DNA of 40,254 nucleotides from a virus: IMG/VR virus record IMGVR_UViG_3300029309_000074, positions 1-40,254 of that record; one strand, given 5' to 3'. The position numbers and the translations under genes were made by a program. The first letter of the stretch is position 1. Each line of letters starts with the position of its first letter. The notes under the pieces were generated by a model. The model was given only the letters and a program-made list of their open reading frames with translations. It made no database searches and was not told the origin of the DNA. This document shows positions 6,127-38,087 of the stretch, in pieces.

Positions 6127-6653
6127 GCAAAGAACTGCCTCCGCAGTTCAAAAGGGCCAAAGGGATGCTGGTGTTCACCCCAAACAGCGACAACATAAAA
6201 GAGGCTTTTGAACGAAGTGAGAAGTTAGGAATATTACCTAATTCATTTACAAGGGGGGTAGGTCGAATGACAGGGTTCTTGGGGGAGGTTGCTTTTGAAA
6301 TTTTATATCCAAACGCTAAATACGTGGGAGCCAAAGTGTTTACTCACGATTATGAGATAGGCAGTAGGACAATTGATGTAAAAAGCAAGACCTGCTCAGG
6401 GAAACCTCTTCCTCACTATACCGCTTCTGTTAATTGTGCAGAAGGTTATAAGCTATCTGCAAGGGCTTACTTCTTCGTTCGTATACGAAGAGACTTAACC
6501 AAGTGTTGGTTAGTTGGTTGGGCTACTGCTAATAAAATACAAAAGCATGGAGACTATTGTAAAAAAGGAGAGGCTGATGACTCTGGATTTACTTATAAGG
6601 TAGACGGGTATCACTTACCTATTTCATCACTACGGAGGGCGAACTCTCTGTAA
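6123..6653 (+). CDS. PD-(D/E)XK-like nuclease fold protein
   Basis: 176 aa. Its core has GFLGEVAFE (helix with Glu55), then HDYEIG with Asp76, then RTIDVKSK where Asp85 and Lys87 form the D-x-K pair; this order (E, D, D-x-K) is that of PD-(D/E)XK endonucleases. A later strand (YFFVRIRRD) and helix complete the likely fold. It is the last gene of the rightward block and runs head-on into the primase-helicase gene, overlapping it by 35 nt. Host DNA breakdown, recombination or DNA trimming are possible roles. Confidence 0.55.
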   Translation: MSKELPPQFKRAKGMLVFTPNSDNIKEAFERSEKLGILPNSFTRGVGRMTGFLGEVAFEILYPNAKYVGAKVFTHDYEIGSRTIDVKSKTCSGKPLPHYTASVNCAEGYKLSARAYFFVRIRRDLTKCWLVGWATANKIQKHGDYCKKGEADDSGFTYKVDGYHLPISSLRRANSL

Positions 6654-8799
6654 TATCGTCGTAGTCGATATCGAAAGGTGGGGTAACATTTATAATCCAA
6701 ACTTTACCACTTCCCTTCCCTACAGATTTTATTGGCCTAATATCTAAATTAGTCCTCCCAGCATCTTCAAGGTGAGATAGTCCGTTTCTGACGAATTCTA
6801 ATTTATTAGATGCTCCAAGTGCTCGCCCGTTGTTGTAAGTATGTATAGCTACTTGAAATTCTGTGATCGTCCCGCGCCACTCTTCCATTTGATCATTTTG
6901 TTCTCTGCAAGCTTTCGCAAAGAAATCTACTAGCTCTGCGACTTGAGATCTACTGGAGTTGTCATATGCAGCATACGCAATACTTTTGTCTATGAAGCTT
7001 TTAACGCCAAATCTATCGTCATCAATCACTTCTTCAGGAGGTTTCCAATCTAGCAACCACTTAAGGAAATAAGGCATTTCAATTTCTATAGTCTCTTCTA
7101 GAGCATGTTTCTTGGGGAACATAAAAGGTTTAGCACACACTTTGTATGCCATGATTTTATCTTTGTTACTTGAGTCTAAAGTTGGAATAACACTCATAGA
7201 GTTTGCATCATCATTAAGACTTACAATAATCCTACCTGCCCATGGTAGCGTCACGGCATCCGCATACTTTGCCATAAACTGTATTTTTGGATTAGCCACT
7301 CCTCTTTTAATAAGTTCTGTGGCTTTCCTTTGATCTTGAAAAGAAGCTGCACTAACAGTGTCATCGATTACCCAAGCCGCAGCACGACCCAAATCTTTAT
7401 TAAATTTAGTGCCCCCAGATAAGTAATCACTTGCGTCTGCGTAACCACCAACGGAAGCTGCTATTATCTTATTAGACAGTAATGTTTTGCCACGTTTAGC
7501 TGGGCCTACAAGAATACATGCTTGTCCTTGATCCTCCTGATTCAATAAAAAAGCGCGATAGAACCTTTGAAACCAAGCAAAGAAATAGTATTTGGTTCTA
7601 ATACGAGTAGAGTCCACAAAAAATTGATCAAAGAATCTCTCAAGAAAAGGCCACTTTTCAAAGTCTCCAGTCTCTGCCGGAGTAATCGGAGCAACGGTAG
7701 CTGAGTTCAGTATTTGCATTCCGTTAAAGGAAACCACTCTTTGGTCTCTTCTGAATACTACAGGGGCAATTTCGTCTATTCTGTTTTGATTACTAATTAC
7801 GATAATAGCATTTTCAACCTCAGATATGTTCTCTCCTTTCTTAGCTCTATTCTTAAAACCCCTTTGTCGTAGTTCGAGAATAACTTGATCCCTTGGGATA
7901 GGCTTGGCTGTGCCATTTAAAAGCTTAAAGAACTGTCTTCCATTAAACCAATATTCATCTAACAGATCCCCCATTTTCTGCTGCTCAAAGTCTTTGACAA
8001 AAGCAGACCCAAAAATATCTCTCCAAGACATCCAACCTTTGTCACGATCTGAGTAAACAATCATGCCATCTTCAAATACTTGGCAACCTTCTCTATCAAT
8101 CCCGTCATCTATCCAAAACAAAGGACCCCTAGACCCAACTTCAAATTCTCCTATCCACCTATTCGGAAATCTATTTTCCACTTCTGACGCAATCCTATCT
8201 ATAGGTATAGATGTATCTTTAGATTGAGGAGGGTTAGCTTTCGCAGCCTTAAATAAAGCAGTTTGAACTAAAGCATTAGGAACTTTACCACCAAGATTAA
8301 CCCAATCCTCCCCTGCTTCAAAATACTGAGACGGATTTTCTGACTTAACATCATAGCCTGCAAAAACTCTATGGAACTCAATTGCTCTTTTAAGTTCCTT
8401 CATAAATGGTTTGTAGAGAGAGTGCTCAATCGACAGGCACTCCTCAAACTCGTAGCACAATCTAATGTATCCGCTATTAGTCCTAGCTCTCCAGCTAGGC
8501 ATACACTTAGATGATTTAGCCGCTATGATATCATCAACATTTGCCCAGTCCACTGGAGCATCATAATCAGCAGCTACTCCATATACTTTTGCTACTTTGT
8601 TTTCTCCTTCTATTCTACAAAGAGGACTAAATCCTTCGGCCAAGGAAAAAAAACAATGATCTGTAGATTTTTTTCCGCACCATTCCCGATACTCTGCTTT
8701 TGAAGCAAATTGAGGTTTAGGTTGCAGCAAGACTTGCGACATATCATCGCAAGCGATACACGCTTTTTCCCGCAAGTTTTTAATGTATTTGTATTTCAT
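6619..8799 (-). CDS. Bifunctional AEP-type primase and SF3-type helicase
   Basis: 726 aa. N-terminal module: YGVAADYDAP (about residues 73-82) carries the D-x-D-like metal motif of archaeo-eukaryotic primases, followed by RTNSGYIRLCYEF and AGYDVKSENPSQYFEAGEDW, which fit the later AEP motifs. C-terminal module: Walker A GPAKRGKT (about 431-438), Walker B AWVIDDT (about 475) and a sensor strand IIVSLNDD (about 525), as in D5/SF3-type phage replicative helicases. It should unwind DNA and lay primers for the family A polymerase encoded directly upstream; the two genes overlap by 4 nt (ATGA at 8796-8799). The gene ends inside the convergent nuclease-like gene. Confidence 0.85.
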   Translation of the reverse strand: MKYKYIKNLREKACIACDDMSQVLLQPKPQFASKAEYREWCGKKSTDHCFFSLAEGFSPLCRIEGENKVAKVYGVAADYDAPVDWANVDDIIAAKSSKCMPSWRARTNSGYIRLCYEFEECLSIEHSLYKPFMKELKRAIEFHRVFAGYDVKSENPSQYFEAGEDWVNLGGKVPNALVQTALFKAAKANPPQSKDTSIPIDRIASEVENRFPNRWIGEFEVGSRGPLFWIDDGIDREGCQVFEDGMIVYSDRDKGWMSWRDIFGSAFVKDFEQQKMGDLLDEYWFNGRQFFKLLNGTAKPIPRDQVILELRQRGFKNRAKKGENISEVENAIIVISNQNRIDEIAPVVFRRDQRVVSFNGMQILNSATVAPITPAETGDFEKWPFLERFFDQFFVDSTRIRTKYYFFAWFQRFYRAFLLNQEDQGQACILVGPAKRGKTLLSNKIIAASVGGYADASDYLSGGTKFNKDLGRAAAWVIDDTVSAASFQDQRKATELIKRGVANPKIQFMAKYADAVTLPWAGRIIVSLNDDANSMSVIPTLDSSNKDKIMAYKVCAKPFMFPKKHALEETIEIEMPYFLKWLLDWKPPEEVIDDDRFGVKSFIDKSIAYAAYDNSSRSQVAELVDFFAKACREQNDQMEEWRGTITEFQVAIHTYNNGRALGASNKLEFVRNGLSHLEDAGRTNLDIRPIKSVGKGSGKVWIINVTPPFDIDYDDITESSPSVVMK

Positions 8800-10586: not shown

Positions 10587-10594
10587 ATTAAAAT

Positions 10595-10642
10595 ACCCCC
10601 CTCGCCCTCGATATGAATGACTCTATTGAGGACAAGGGGGGT
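10595..10642 (-). promoter_or_regulatory. RNA hairpin over the DNA polymerase ribosome-binding site
   Basis: In leftward RNA the arm at 10642-10625 (ACCCCCCTTGTCCTCAAT) can pair with the arm at 10612-10595 (ATCGAGGGCGAGGGGGGT) around a 12-nt loop. I count 15 Watson-Crick pairs, two G-U pairs and one A-C mismatch over 18 positions. The 3' arm holds GAGGGGGG, the only Shine-Dalgarno-like sequence, and the stem ends 8 nt before the polymerase ATG (10586). The two transitions are wobble pairs only in leftward RNA, which argues for function in that strand. The expected effect is masking of translation start, as in the autoregulated T4 gene 43 operator. No U-run follows, so a terminator is unlikely. 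Confidence 0.6.
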
Positions 10643-10725
10643 GACATGGGCTTTTATGCGATTACCCAAAGGTGATGAAATTAACCAGCTACAAAGCAAA
10701 GCCGCCGCATTACCTAAGTTTTATT

Positions 10726-10911
10726 TTAGTTATCTTCCAACTTAATTTCTTCCTGTTTCGGGAGAGATTTTAATATGTTTTGATAACCGTCTAAAAGTAC
10801 GTTGTTTGCTTCAACGGCTTTCATAGACTCAGCAACTAGCTCTTCTAGTTTCACTAAAGTTGCTTTTGTAGCAGCTATTTCTTTTTCGTATACTTCTCTC
10901 TCCGATATCAT
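10726..10911 (-). CDS. Small coiled-coil protein
   Basis: 61 aa, almost wholly helical and heptad-like (EIAATKATLVKLEELVAESMKAVEANNVLLDGYQNILKSL), with an acidic tail EEIKLEDN. Its ATG overlaps the stop of the gene upstream (ATGA at 10908-10911), so translation is probably coupled to the candidate ssDNA-binding protein. It has no known motif. It lies between that gene and the hairpin ahead of the polymerase, so it may be a partner or accessory factor of the replication complex; this is inference. Confidence 0.6.
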   Translation of the reverse strand: MISEREVYEKEIAATKATLVKLEELVAESMKAVEANNVLLDGYQNILKSLPKQEEIKLEDN

Positions 10912-11597
10912 TTCAAAAGAATCCCTTCTTTAAGATATTTCAAAACGGATTTGCTTGGGGCAAAAAATTCATCTTTGCCGTCTTTGCCTTTACGTTTTGC
11001 CTTCGATATCATCGCTGTGTGGTAAGTGACACCCCCAGTGATTTCGTGAGTGCTTAATGACCACACGTAGTCGTGCAGACTTCCTTGAGGATTAAACTTT
11101 TGATACGTGTAAAGCGTCTTAAAAACATTTTTGTAAGCAAGCTTCTGAACCCGTATTTTGAATATGCCATAGTGATCATCCCCGATGCGCATCTGAAAAT
11201 CAGTTGGGTCAACACTTTCTGGATGTTTGATTAGCATCGTAATGTTTGCAGCTTCCTGCACTTTATGCTGGGAGCTTTTTTTAAGCTCGTGCATTTCTTC
11301 TTTAGTGTAGACCTTATTCTCTGAGCCAGTGGGGTTGTTTCGATTGAATGGTGTTTCCTCAAACCAAAATTTTTCACACTGTAGAGGAATAACTTCAAGA
11401 GGAGTATTTGGTGCGGCTAGTAAACACCTTTTATCAATTGTAATTGATCCGAATTCTGGGTCTTCGCCGTCAATTGAGTATGTTGAAGACGATTGAAAGA
11501 TTTGAATCCAAGGTATATTTAGATCGTCTTGATCGGCTGCATCGTTAAAAAATATTAACTTATATTCTGGTTTCTTTGTTGCTAGTTCTGATGACAT
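10908..11597 (-). CDS. Hypothetical replication protein, candidate ssDNA-binding protein
   Basis: 229 aa with no motif I can assign with confidence. It is soluble and rich in aromatic and basic residues in its second half (KIRVQKLAYKNVFKTLYTYQKF), compatible with an OB-like or other ssDNA-binding surface, but it lacks the acidic C-terminal tail of typical SSB or T7 gp2.5. It lies between the Cas4-like nuclease and the polymerase, where phages often keep their ssDNA-binding protein, and is the first gene after a promoter-like site. Abundant ssDNA-binding or recombination-mediator roles are therefore plausible; structure prediction would decide. Confidence 0.5.
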   Translation of the reverse strand: MSSELATKKPEYKLIFFNDAADQDDLNIPWIQIFQSSSTYSIDGEDPEFGSITIDKRCLLAAPNTPLEVIPLQCEKFWFEETPFNRNNPTGSENKVYTKEEMHELKKSSQHKVQEAANITMLIKHPESVDPTDFQMRIGDDHYGIFKIRVQKLAYKNVFKTLYTYQKFNPQGSLHDYVWSLSTHEITGGVTYHTAMISKAKRKGKDGKDEFFAPSKSVLKYLKEGILLK

Positions 11598-11618: not shown

Positions 11619-11647
11619 TTATTATTACTTATTACTTCTCAAGACAA
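11619..11647 (-). promoter_or_regulatory. Leftward sigma70-like promoter for the replication genes
   Basis: Read leftward: TTGTCT (11647-11642), a 17-bp spacer, TAATAA (11624-11619). The predicted start at about 11611 lies some 14 nt before the ATG at 11597. The -35 overlaps the end of the upstream Cas4-like gene. The spacer contains the near-repeat AGTAATAAGTAATA. It would add transcription of the ssDNA-binding candidate, the coiled-coil gene, polymerase and primase. Confidence 0.35.
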
Positions 11648-12763
11648 GGTGTGCCTTGGGGAAGATCTTTCAATCACTCCTGCTTCTTGACAGGACTCAA
11701 GAAAGTTTTCAGCCTGTGCTTTTTTTGCACCTTTTTCTGCCTGATCGCCAACTACTTTGGCGACTTTTGCAACAGGGATACTTACTTGTGATAAAATCTG
11801 CTCTGCGTTTAGTCCATATTCTTTAGCTATAGCAAAAAAGGTAGATTGATCTACAACTTTTCTTGCGCCGTTAGATGCTTTTAATTCCAAGTTCGGAAAT
11901 TCCATACCTTCTTGGGCTAGTTTCACTGCTCTTTTTTTAAATCGTTCCGCCCAATTTGTAACAATCTTACTTATTGCCCATAGCTGCTCTATTATTTGAG
12001 GATCATCAACCTCTTCTAAATCAACATCTGGCAATTGTGGGTTTATCTTTTTAGCAACCTCTACGACTAATCCTCCAAGTGCAGGGCAAACATCTTCAAA
12101 TTTACAGAACCTACAATTGATAGTTGGAGTTAAGTCCTCTGGTAAAGGGTGCCCATCCTCCCACAATGGACGAACTTTTTCTGCTTTTAGAATTACCTTT
12201 GACAGCTCATCTACCAGATCATCAAGCTGATCTCTTTTAAAAGAGTGCTCAAGAATTTCATTCCGTTGGGGTATAAAAAATACAAATGTTATTTGTTTGA
12301 GGTTTGGGAACTTTTGAAAGCACCCAATTGTGTATGCTTTTGATTGCCAGTTTTGATCTGGTGTATCAATTTTTGAGATGCCCGTTTTATAATCAATCAA
12401 GACAGCTTCATCTCCGTAAACATTTAAAAAATCACAAGTGCCAAAAGTCGATGTCCCGTTTAAGTCTATGTCCAAAAGTATCTCAGAATAACTATCTGTG
12501 AGAGTTGAAGGATCAAATGATTCTAAGTAGTTATTTTGATCGGAGCAAATTTCCTCATAGATTTGTAATTCTTTTTCCGACTGAAGATTTGAAGGGTCTC
12601 TAATCTCAATAGCTTCATGAATTCTTGTGCCCATTTCCGCAGCGGCGTTTGTGCCTTCCCTGCCTTTGTATCCAGAGCACCCAGCTACATATTTCAAGGA
12701 ACTGGGAGAAAACTCAGCATGCCCTCTGTCTGAGTGTGCCTGTTGATTCATGGCGCACAACAT
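11639..12763 (-). CDS. Cas4/RecB-like PD-(D/E)XK nuclease (DUF2800-like)
   Basis: 374 aa. Motifs in order: FSPSSLKYVAGCSGY (N-terminal motif with Cys29), GTRIHEAIE with His49, GTCDFL with Asp111, VLIDYKTG with Asp124 and Lys126 (the D-x-K pair), QNWQSKAY (RecB motif with Gln/Tyr), and a cluster CRFCKFEDVC near residues 218-227. This order is that of RecB-family/Cas4-like nucleases, matching DUF2800. The Cys cluster may hold an Fe-S cluster or zinc. A C-terminal extension is helical. The likely role is resection of DNA ends for recombination-dependent replication, beside a RuvC-like resolvase. ATG 12763 or 12751 could be the start. Confidence 0.75.
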   Translation of the reverse strand: MLCAMNQQAHSDRGHAEFSPSSLKYVAGCSGYKGREGTNAAAEMGTRIHEAIEIRDPSNLQSEKELQIYEEICSDQNNYLESFDPSTLTDSYSEILLDIDLNGTSTFGTCDFLNVYGDEAVLIDYKTGISKIDTPDQNWQSKAYTIGCFQKFPNLKQITFVFFIPQRNEILEHSFKRDQLDDLVDELSKVILKAEKVRPLWEDGHPLPEDLTPTINCRFCKFEDVCPALGGLVVEVAKKINPQLPDVDLEEVDDPQIIEQLWAISKIVTNWAERFKKRAVKLAQEGMEFPNLELKASNGARKVVDQSTFFAIAKEYGLNAEQILSQVSIPVAKVAKVVGDQAEKGAKKAQAENFLESCQEAGVIERSSPRHTLS

Positions 12764-12783: not shown

Positions 12784-13281
12784 TCAACCTGTTTCTTCAA
12801 ATTTTTTTGACCTCAGTAGGTAAGTCGCTATTAAAAAAGCGTCAACAATCCCGTCATGGGGTGTCCTACACCTTTTGTTTTTTAGCCAACTTTCTTGCGG
12901 AGCTAGTCTCTCTGCTACATTCAAAGCAGCTATTTTAGTCATACCTTTTCCAGTATACCCAATCATTTCTTTCTGCCACTTATGCACCGATATGCGGCAC
13001 ACATCATACTCGTTAGACTCAGCTAAACCGACGAGCTTACCAAAGCTTAGAGCCATTGATCGTATAGCTTGGGAACTTTTTGCGTGAGCTAGTGGTTCTT
13101 CGATGGCTAAAGTAAATGGAGTGTTCAGGTCTAACACCCACCGTTTCACTTTTAATATATCTATTTCTTTTTTCTTAGAAACCTGCTTTGTAGGCATAGC
13201 AGTCTTAGCAATTACCCCTCCATCAAATTTTGATATGGCGCAGATTCCCCCGTTCAATCCGTTATCAATTCCTATAATCAA
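12784..13281 (-). CDS. RuvC-like Holliday junction resolvase, non-ATG start
   Basis: 165 aa. RNase H-fold resolvase motifs: IIGIDNG (Asp6), LAIEEP (Glu61/62) and PHDGIVDAFLIA (Asp143, Asp147), the four-acid site of RuvC and the pox/phage A22-like resolvases. It should cut branched DNA left by replication and recombination before packaging. The reading starts at TTG (13281) or an ATT one codon upstream; a TAA lies just before, and the next ATG (residue 29) would remove the first catalytic Asp, so a non-ATG start is almost forced. The start overlaps the stop of the upstream gene, so coupling may supply initiation. Confidence 0.8.
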   Translation of the reverse strand: MIIGIDNGLNGGICAISKFDGGVIAKTAMPTKQVSKKKEIDILKVKRWVLDLNTPFTLAIEEPLAHAKSSQAIRSMALSFGKLVGLAESNEYDVCRISVHKWQKEMIGYTGKGMTKIAALNVAERLAPQESWLKNKRCRTPHDGIVDAFLIATYLLRSKKFEETG

Positions 13282-14409: not shown

Positions 14410-16197
14410 ATGACTTTAAACGAAGCAAGGAGCAAGCAGTTACTAGAACCAAGAATAGACTCAAAATCTAAGAAGATGGACGTGGGTGGTTTTAAAATAC
14501 CACCTACGAGTCTTCTTACAGCTTTGTTATTTGGTTTTGCTAATCACGAAGATGTGGTTGTTCGTGAATATTACTTCTGGCGTTTGTGTGATGAGCTGTG
14601 GAACAGAGAAGATTTACCTGAAAAATTAATGGTAAAACATCCATGGGCAAAACTCATGGTCCGTGCAGCTCTAGAAAATAAGTATTTAGCTATTGGGGGG
14701 AGTGCTTCTTCTGGGAAAAGTCACACGATGGCTGCGTGGGGTATCATTAACTGGCTTTGCAAACCACAAGATACTCTTGTTTTAATGACTTCTACTACGC
14801 TACGCGAAGCGCGAAAACGAATCTGGGGGAGTGTCATGTCTCTTTTATCCGTAATAGATGACGCTCCTATTAAGATTAGGGATTCAATTGGTAATGCAGC
14901 CTATATTAATGAAAAGGATATTCTAATTGAGAGAGCAGGACTTTCGTTAATTTCTGCTGAAAAAAGTAAAACCAAAGAGGCAGTTGGTAAGTTTATTGGT
15001 ATAAAACAAAAGCGGGTGATTCTTATCGGGGATGAGCTTTCCGAGCTTTCTGAAGCTATATTACAAGCTGGTTTAACAAACTTATCTAAAAACCCTGAAT
15101 TTCAGTTGATAGGTATGTCTAATCCAAATAGCAGATTTGATGCTTTTGGAGTTTGGTCTACTCCAAAAAATGGGTGGGATAGTATAGATACAAATATTGA
15201 TGATGAGTGGGACACAAAATGGAATGGCAAGTATTTACGTTTAGATGGTGAAAAGTCCCCAAATATTTTAGCAGGAGAAACAATATATCCATGGCTTCCT
15301 ACTGAAGAAAAACTAGCCGAAGACAAAGCTTTACTTGGTGTTGAGAGCAGAGGGTATATGAGGATGGTAAGAGCCGTCTTCTTTGATAGTGACGAAACAA
15401 CAGGGATATATAGCGAAAATGAGTTGTCCTCTAGTGGTTCATTAAACAATGTAGACTGGAGTGGTCACCCTACAAATATCTGTGGGATTGACCCTGCATT
15501 TACTAATGGTGGAGACAGAACAATTTTGTACACAGCTAAGTGTGGCTATGATACTGGTGGTCAGTATGTTATAGAATTTGGAGAAGCAATACATTTAAAC
15601 GATGACGCAACAAATAAAGCTGTTCCTAGAACATATCAAATTGTTAAGCAGATAAAAGATAAGTGTCAGCGTCTAAAAATATTGCCTGAAAATGTAGCGG
15701 TTGATGCTACTGGAGCCGGACAACCGTTTTGTGATGTGCTGGCAGGAGAGTGGTCTAATAGATTTTTGAGAGTTGGCTTTGGGGGGAAAGCTAGTGACAA
15801 AAGAGTAAGTGCCAATAGTAAGATGATTGGCTCAGAGCTATATGTTAATCGTGTATCAGAACTTTGGTTTGTAGGAAAAGAGCTAATGAGAACTCGTCAA
15901 GTCTTTGGAATTACATCTGATTTAGCTCAAGAAATAACAGGGAGAAATTATGATATGGTGAAAGGATCTACTCTACGGATGAAAATAGAAAGTAAGCCAG
16001 AATTCAAATCAAGGTTTGGTAGAAGCCCAGATTTGGCGGATGCTGCTTTTTTAGCTTTAGATTGCGCCCGTCAAAGACTTGGTTTGGTCGCGGTAGATCC
16101 CCCTGAAGATTCTACAACACAAAATCCTAGAAGAAGAGTCACAATAAACACGCTTTCAAAAGCTTTACAAAACTCAGAGACAACCCTCATGGATTGA
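14410..16197 (+). CDS. terL: Terminase large subunit (ATPase and nuclease)
   Basis: 595 aa from ATG 14410; an in-frame start at 14365 would overlap the divergent gene. ATPase domain: Walker A GGSASSGKSH (about 96-105), Walker B VILIGDELSE (about 203-212). RNase H-like nuclease domain: GIDPAFTNGGDRT (Asp about 361), VAVDATGAG (Asp about 432), and PDLADAAFLA near 540 with the third acid. This is the full set of a headful/cos-type packaging motor. It powers DNA into the prohead and cuts concatemers. The next genes are probable ejection proteins, while the portal lies some 24 kb away. Confidence 0.93.
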   Translation: MTLNEARSKQLLEPRIDSKSKKMDVGGFKIPPTSLLTALLFGFANHEDVVVREYYFWRLCDELWNREDLPEKLMVKHPWAKLMVRAALENKYLAIGGSASSGKSHTMAAWGIINWLCKPQDTLVLMTSTTLREARKRIWGSVMSLLSVIDDAPIKIRDSIGNAAYINEKDILIERAGLSLISAEKSKTKEAVGKFIGIKQKRVILIGDELSELSEAILQAGLTNLSKNPEFQLIGMSNPNSRFDAFGVWSTPKNGWDSIDTNIDDEWDTKWNGKYLRLDGEKSPNILAGETIYPWLPTEEKLAEDKALLGVESRGYMRMVRAVFFDSDETTGIYSENELSSSGSLNNVDWSGHPTNICGIDPAFTNGGDRTILYTAKCGYDTGGQYVIEFGEAIHLNDDATNKAVPRTYQIVKQIKDKCQRLKILPENVAVDATGAGQPFCDVLAGEWSNRFLRVGFGGKASDKRVSANSKMIGSELYVNRVSELWFVGKELMRTRQVFGITSDLAQEITGRNYDMVKGSTLRMKIESKPEFKSRFGRSPDLADAAFLALDCARQRLGLVAVDPPEDSTTQNPRRRVTINTLSKALQNSETTLMD

Positions 16198-37847: not shown

Positions 37848-38087
37848 ATGAGTGATAAACAGGATTATTACGCTCGGAACAAACAAGCTCGCAAAGAGTA
37901 TCAGCGTAAATATTACAGTCTGAACAAAGAAAGTATACAGAGGAAGAAAAGACTGGAAGAACTCCACGATCCAGAAAAGTTTGAAGCGAGACGTGCTTAC
38001 AACAAAGCCTATTACGAAAAGAACAAAGAAGAGATTCTCAAAAAGAGGGCAGAGGCGTATGCTAAGAGCAAAAAGCTCAAAGAATAA
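37848..38087 (+). CDS. Small basic helical protein with YY-x-x-NK repeats
   Basis: 79 aa from ATG 37848 (ATG 37836 is also in frame). Repeated units DYYARNKQARKEYQRKYYSLNKE and AYNKAYYEKNKEEILKKRAEAY give a basic helix with regular Tyr-Tyr and Asn-Lys pairs. This repeat type occurs in many small phage and bacterial proteins of unknown role, probably nucleic-acid binding. A twin operator lies about 30 bp beyond its stop. Confidence 0.6.
   Translation: MSDKQDYYARNKQARKEYQRKYYSLNKESIQRKKRLEELHDPEKFEARRAYNKAYYEKNKEEILKKRAEAYAKSKKLKE

Follow-up and report, generated by a model that had tools for sequence, protein, structure and literature searches.

What lies in the gap before the DNA polymerase gene of an uncultured phage, and what it does there, is the question raised by a DNA stretch of 40,254 nucleotides from IMG/VR record IMGVR_UViG_3300029309_000074 (the window). 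An earlier note, made from the sequence alone, had drawn attention to a hairpin just upstream of this gene (polA) and proposed that it masks the translation start of the polymerase. Two RNA modules were found in the 140-nt gap upstream of polA, a pseudoknotted motif followed by the hairpin, and they fold side by side (Table 1). The assignment of the polymerase to family A in the earlier note was borne out by profile matches. The 229-aa protein encoded further upstream had no match in Pfam or PHROG.

Table 1. Position of the polymerase gene, its neighbours and the RNA elements in the window
Feature	Position	Strand	Remarks
Family A DNA polymerase (polA), 596 aa	8796..10586	(-)	PF00476 1.8e-31, phrog_17 1e-81
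U-rich tail AUUUUAAU between hairpin and start codon	10587..10594	(-)	T content of tail 0.56 vs 0.26 in control, polA relatives
GC-rich hairpin before polA	10595..10642	(-)	5′ arm 10628-10642, 3′ arm 10595-10609
Double-pseudoknotted RNA motif, whole	10643..10715	(-)	Covariance-model match 79 bits (R2), 72 bits with E 6e-18 (R3; E-values rough, short calibration); alignments A1, A2, A4
Helix A, 5′ strand AGGU	10712..10715	(-)	Pairs with 10670-10673
Helix A, 3′ strand ACCU	10670..10673	(-)	Pairs with 10712-10715
Pseudoknot helix B, 5′ strand UGCGG	10705..10709	(-)	Pairs with 10657-10661 in loop of hairpin D
Pseudoknot helix B, 3′ strand UCGCA	10657..10661	(-)	Within loop of hairpin D
Variable hairpin C	10686..10704	(-)	Closed by conserved CGG:CUG with invariant G-U pair
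Hairpin D (UGGG/CCCA)	10647..10668	(-)	Loop UAA-YCRCA-UAAAAG holds 3′ strand of B
Small ORF, 61 aa	10726..10911	(-)	Stop codon 10 nt before motif; counterparts upstream of motif in polA relatives
229-aa protein upstream of small ORF	10908..11597	(-)	Same place conserved in polA relatives
DUF5906/primase-like protein	6619-8799	(-)	Replication neighbour
DUF2800 exonuclease-like protein	11639-12763	(-)	Replication neighbour
RuvC-like resolvase	12784-13281	(-)	Replication neighbour
Single open frame, 3575 aa	17965-28692	(+)	About a quarter of the window

The hairpin before polA

The hairpin was found exactly as the earlier note had described it, with an 18-position stem (15 Watson–Crick pairs, two G-U and one A-C) whose end lies 8 nt upstream of the polA ATG (10586). 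In the minus-strand RNA 10642-10587 its arms, ACCCCCCUUGUCCUC (10642-10628) and GAGGGCGAGGGGGGU (10609-10595), form 15 continuous pairs, 13 Watson–Crick and two U-G, beyond which an A-C position and two A-U pairs complete the 18 positions. The minimum free energy of the hairpin is -32.2 kcal/mol (z = -7.1), none of 200 shuffled sequences folded as well, and the 15-bp stem exceeded every stem found in 300 shuffles of the interval between the motif and the ATG (largest 11). In IMG/VR, 23 contigs were recovered with the polymerase as query, most at 57-71% identity. The stem was present at 34 polA loci, at distances of 8-21 nt from the stem end to the ATG, and L151 and L152 also carry it once their start codon is reassigned; its arms differ in sequence between the loci, which shows that it is not a product of chance. 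Comparison of the intergenic regions of relatives, as the earlier note had suggested, gave a divided answer: most keep the stem with different arms despite many sequence changes, but in L129 and L238 polA begins 7 nt past the motif and there is no hairpin at either locus. Among the wobbles in 30 hairpin arms, 37 of 41 were U(5′)-G(3′), a combination that reads A-C in the opposite strand, and since the stems had been selected as pairable this count is to be read as supportive only. To this extent the earlier note is supported: the hairpin belongs to the RNA level and is conserved before polA. In L018, a polA relative that lacks the motif, an ordinary terminator hairpin with UUUUC lies some 20 nt upstream of polA, and in L019 and L020, also without the motif, a different long hairpin (GCTCTAGTGGTCTTGG...CCAAGGCTGCTAGAGC) is located upstream of polA.

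Blocking of translation initiation on polA by the hairpin, with the polymerase perhaps serving as autogenous repressor, would have a precedent in phages T4 and RB69, where gp43 represses its own translation through a hairpin operator with a conserved UAAC loop recognised by the polymerase (PMC3014915), and the 15-bp stem lies close enough to the ATG in most polA relatives to fit such a role. The GAGGGGGG sequence is, as had been noted, literally the only ribosome-binding-like sequence at this site, but this carries little weight, as no Shine–Dalgarno usage that could be masked was seen in the phage: such sites precede 3 of 30 genes in the window, while 12% is expected from shuffles. In the polA relatives their frequency was 4% versus 9% in shuffles, and it was at chance in almost all motif-bearing groups, a mixed high-GC set being slightly above it (25% versus 17%). 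In the absence of Shine–Dalgarno usage and of a defined site, the overlap with a ribosome-binding site that characterizes gp43-type control is not found here. The arms of the polA hairpin vary freely, and its loops differ in length and sequence with no conserved loop sequence, unlike in the gp43 operator. Further evidence against start masking comes from the loci that have polA and no hairpin, from the terminator-like tail, and from the comparable hairpins at sites where polA does not follow. On these grounds the masking proposed in the earlier note is poorly supported, and a block of the polA start is considered improbable as the main role of the hairpin. A 15-bp stem 8 nt from the AUG could, on the other hand, sterically impede initiation, so that some translational effect could exist.

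The features of the hairpin are closer to those of an intrinsic terminator, in which a stable GC-rich stem is directly followed by a U-rich tract, as the 15-bp stem is here by AUUUUAAU. In a hand-listed set of 30 polA loci, the 8 nt after the stem contained 56% T, compared to 26% at the equivalent position upstream of other genes, and at least four T were present in this 8-nt tail at 23 of the 30 loci, compared to 18% in the control. The U-tracts are poor in several polA relatives (e.g., L012, L013, and L016). The window hairpin was not flagged by a simple terminator scan, which allowed loops of 3-8 nt and required five T in 8 nt, and this is explained by its loop length and by the tail rule of the scan. 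At 89 of 179 sites, versus 36 in shuffles, the motif was followed by a hairpin with six or more base pairs, and a hairpin with at least five T in the next 8 nt was found just downstream of the motif at 30 of these sites, versus 1.0 in shuffles. GC-rich hairpins with T-runs also follow the motif at sites where a gene other than polA comes next (e.g., L109, L116, and L175). Together with L018, L129, and L238, these hairpins elsewhere indicate that the hairpin is separable both from the motif and from polA, and that it resembles a transcript-end module. Hence, the U-rich tail and the occurrence of similar hairpins at other sites suggest that the hairpin is probably, in the first place, a terminator or transcript-end hairpin. 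In two loci, L114 (11273-11351, minus strand) and L117 (1596-1673, plus strand), the whole motif lies inside an outer helix of 10-12 bp with a T run after it, so that there a terminator stem is built around the motif. Such an outer helix (P0) was considered as a general feature of the motif and rejected, as it is present in subgroups only.

The double-pseudoknotted RNA motif

Upstream of the hairpin, the polA relatives share a stretch of much stronger conservation, GGUAAUGCGGCGGC..GCUGGUUA..CAUCACC..GGGUAAUCGCAUAAAAGCCC, which means that the conserved information before polA is this upstream RNA, not a masked ribosome-binding site. The motif, which measures about 73 nt in the window and 64-94 nt across the family, consists of helix A, hairpins C and D, and helix B, in which the 5′ part of the motif pairs with the D loop to give a double pseudoknot. 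About 30 core positions are near-invariant, and the unpaired positions that never change include, in the D loop, UAA and UAAAA and, after helix C, GU. The structure was evaluated in 106 sequences aligned with a model built on helices A, C, and D, from which B was left out; the pairing counts of A, C, and D therefore lean towards the structure, while those of B are free of this bias. In this alignment 96.1% of pair cells were canonical, compared to 73.3% after shuffling, and the covariation score was 0.640, compared to 0.173 ± 0.008 in shuffled alignments (0 of 500 as high) and to at most 0.126 in slid versions. Helix A was paired in 96.5% of cells, with three of its four pairs changing on both sides, and hairpin D in 98.1%, with changes on both sides in four of five pairs. 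The G-U pair of hairpin C was present in 106 of 106 sequences, and its outer variable pairs covary.

The least biased evidence comes from helix B, which was 99.8% paired in the same sequences, with three pairs changed on both sides. In a set of 191 unique sequences, in which three B positions were free on both sides, the two strands were fully complementary in 189, in 15 complementary combinations; the outer two pairs had been fixed by the search pattern and do not count as evidence in this set. The strands are replaced in concert, as in UGCAG:CUGCA, UGUAG:CUACA, UGAUG:CAUCA, and UGACC:GGUCA, besides UGCGG:CCGCA and UGUGG:CCACA. This covariation demonstrates the structure of the family, and the family of structured RNAs is almost certainly real. 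A coding explanation, in which a frame of the motif reads GNRIKA, was rejected, because motif lengths (64-94 nt) are spread over all three phases and the changes follow base pairing. A function at the DNA level is disfavoured by the sense orientation of the motif and by its G-U pairs.

Distribution and genomic context

A pattern scan for the conserved stretch returned 80 stretches in viral contigs, and a second scan, in which the pseudoknot strand was left free and one position was forced to differ, added 18 new loci, all of them strong covariance-model matches. Two looser pattern scans gave at least 120 and at least 119 stretches. Altogether hundreds of IMG/VR contigs carry the motif, and as these contigs are related and partly redundant, the counts are not independent events. 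Searches of Rfam 15, including its ribozyme families, gave no match for the window or for six further loci, with E relaxed to as much as 10 and 1; the hits at gathering thresholds and at E up to 10 were only chance miRNA-type matches to the hairpin. A blastn search of the motif and an L206 flank against named phages found nothing real, and the motif was absent from all six isolate flavobacterial phages examined. Among about 1,000 bacterial genomes it was found only in one phage-like contig of an Altibacter MAG, which accounts for 1 of 300 Flavobacteriaceae and, as the same genome, 1 of 395 Bacteroidota, with 0 of 299 Bacillota; these counts were obtained with strict filters, and a positive control was recovered from the Bacteroidota sets alone. 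Five of the six matches of a first pattern scan of bacterial contigs were chance matches, and the Altibacter contig alone was real. No description of the motif was found in the open-access literature, and no link to the candidates of PMC10085705 (permuted hammerheads and others). The motif belongs to an RNA family with a double pseudoknot that is widespread in uncultured phages and had not been catalogued before. The frequency of Shine–Dalgarno-like sites at or near chance in the phages that carry it points to hosts without Shine–Dalgarno initiation, such as Bacteroidota.

The motif typically follows the end of a gene on the same strand. The upstream neighbour was codirectional at 119 of 150 sites and antisense at 9, and a codirectional stop was located within 120 nt at 152 of 180 sites, the commonest distance being 6-7 nt before the motif. 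Downstream, a codirectional ORF starts within 200 nt at 127 of 175 sites, with none at the remaining 48. Protein clusters next to the motif number 46 upstream and 52 downstream, of which polA is the commonest downstream (37 of 127 sites). The neighbours that could be named mostly serve DNA metabolism, including Sak4, a gp2.5-like ssDNA-binding protein, annealing proteins, and exonuclease VIII; HNH/endonuclease VII, dCMP deaminase, RusA, RNA ligase, and ParB-like proteins are further named ones besides polA, and QueD and, by sequence, rIIA-like and terminase genes also occur. This composition suggests that the context is not wholly random, while some neighbours are spurious, because genes were called by simple ORF rules. 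A sense tRNA was found 8-35 nt from the motif at five sites, too few for tRNA linkage to be the rule.

Other arrangements recur in subsets of loci. In L027, L030, L039, L044, and L054, which were checked, the motif is preceded at 7-19 nt by the end of an HNH endonuclease gene, and the same arrangement is seen in L128, L163, and others; in these HNH loci several hundred nucleotides after the motif are apparently non-coding, conserved, and partly G-rich (ACTACAAACAAATACCCTCG...). A short conserved inverted repeat, TTCCGACAAGGAA, lies between the stop codon and the motif in L002, L004, L007, L009, L012, and other polA loci, and is absent from the window phage.

Whole viral records contained one or two copies of the motif, even at lengths of 109-211 kb, and the window motif is the only copy in its 48-kb record according to the R3 covariance model. 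A second copy is usually in tandem, as in L112 (418-491 and 507-580), L121 (3688-3801 and 3814-3885), L300 (5543-5627 and 5629-5704), L088 (22-94 and 122-196), L081, and L215. The B-helix sequences often differ between such close copies, which suggests that the pairs are old duplications. The only tested record with distant copies was G303 (174,551 b), where they lie about 22 kb apart (15268-15346 and 37990-38068).

Possible roles of the RNA and its relation to known RNAs

The variety of neighbouring genes and the single locus in most genomes suggest that the RNA may well act in its own right. The account that we tentatively prefer starts from an operon transcript, whose 3′ end would yield the motif as a stand-alone structured RNA; the hairpin, as an intrinsic-type terminator, would close the transcript unit that carries it, and polA would be expressed by read-through past the hairpin. 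The RNA itself might bind protein or RNA, and might be processed like the phage tRNAs that sometimes adjoin it. Judged from sequence comparison, this account as a whole comes somewhat short of an even chance, and so does the stand-alone or trans-acting role of the RNA, taken separately.

Cis control would also fit the many sites at which the motif lies 4-35 nt before a codirectional start codon. In such a leader the motif would be a sensor, either a riboswitch or an operator for a replication protein, and the hairpin the expression platform for the next gene, here polA. The combination of the motif with a terminator-like hairpin resembles an attenuator, the largest downstream cluster is polA, and the DNA-metabolism neighbours are in line with regulation of this kind, for which the autoregulation of T4 gp32 through an RNA pseudoknot offers a precedent (PMC3014915). 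Against this, no conserved alternative pairing between the motif and the hairpin arms was found, and antiterminator pairing was rejected, as the arms paired with their own motif no better than did swapped arms. The consistent downstream gene set of a metabolite riboswitch is not seen either, given 52 downstream clusters and 48 of 175 sites without a codirectional ORF within 200 nt, nor is a platform mutually exclusive with the aptamer, because motif and hairpin fold together. Some copies lie within tRNA clusters, and copies per genome are few. On balance a cis-regulatory leader is considered rather unlikely, somewhat less probable than the stand-alone RNA.

A stand-alone RNA could also be catalytic. 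The motif could be a compact nested-pseudoknot ribozyme that cuts near its own 5′ end and so parts the upstream message or tRNA from the rest, which its small size, its near-invariant core, and the invariant G-U pair would suit. The closest counterparts are theta ribozymes, HDV-like RNAs of gut phages located next to tRNAs (PMC10879173). Like these, the motif is a compact, double-pseudoknotted, intergenic phage RNA in sense orientation, confined to phages and at some sites beside tRNAs, and its strands A, B, and C, supported by covariation, come in the order of P1, P2, and P3 of HDV-like ribozymes. This might correspond to a nested pseudoknot of the P1-P2-P3-P3′-P1′-P2′ type, but helix A has only 4 bp, the additional helix D straddles and encloses the 3′ strand of B, and the linker from C to A is 12-14 nt long. 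In contrast to theta ribozymes, the motif has no HDV-type J4/2, with no nucleotide matching the catalytic C in its place, and it is mostly not linked to tRNAs; no ribozyme family of Rfam matches it. Hence, self-cleavage is unlikely, to a greater degree than a cis-regulatory leader, and an explanation outside these three is improbable.

To our knowledge, few structured RNA classes specific to phages have been described. We consider it an even chance that the motif represents a new small structured class, carried in one or two copies by many uncultured phages of non-Shine–Dalgarno hosts, which would function independently, either as a ribozyme that cleaves itself or as an RNA acting in trans on the host or on defence, rather than as a regulator of polA. 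Its function may be of a known kind after all. The family combines strong covariation and hundreds of members with a well-defined double pseudoknot, its compact core makes it open to direct testing, and if it is a ribozyme, riboswitch, or trans-acting RNA, the motif would establish its class as the first member.

Among other known systems, the hairpin after the motif shares the GC-rich stem and U-rich tail with intrinsic (Rho-independent) terminators, and differs from them in three respects: part of the polA group has a weak tail, the loops often exceed 8 nt, and a start codon lies 8-21 nt away. Another cis-acting phage-encoded RNA is put of HK022, which can precede terminators (PMC9378689). 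It is also comparable in size to the motif. The put RNA is part of early transcripts, its target is RNA polymerase, and its fold and sequence presumably differ from those of the motif. The operators of T4 and RB69 gene 43 and the T4 gene 32 pseudoknot are likewise structured RNAs just upstream of a phage replication gene; they are mRNA-specific, translational, and overlap the ribosome-binding site (PMC3014915), while here the polymerase is of family A, Shine–Dalgarno sites are not used, and the RNA belongs to a family found beside many other genes.
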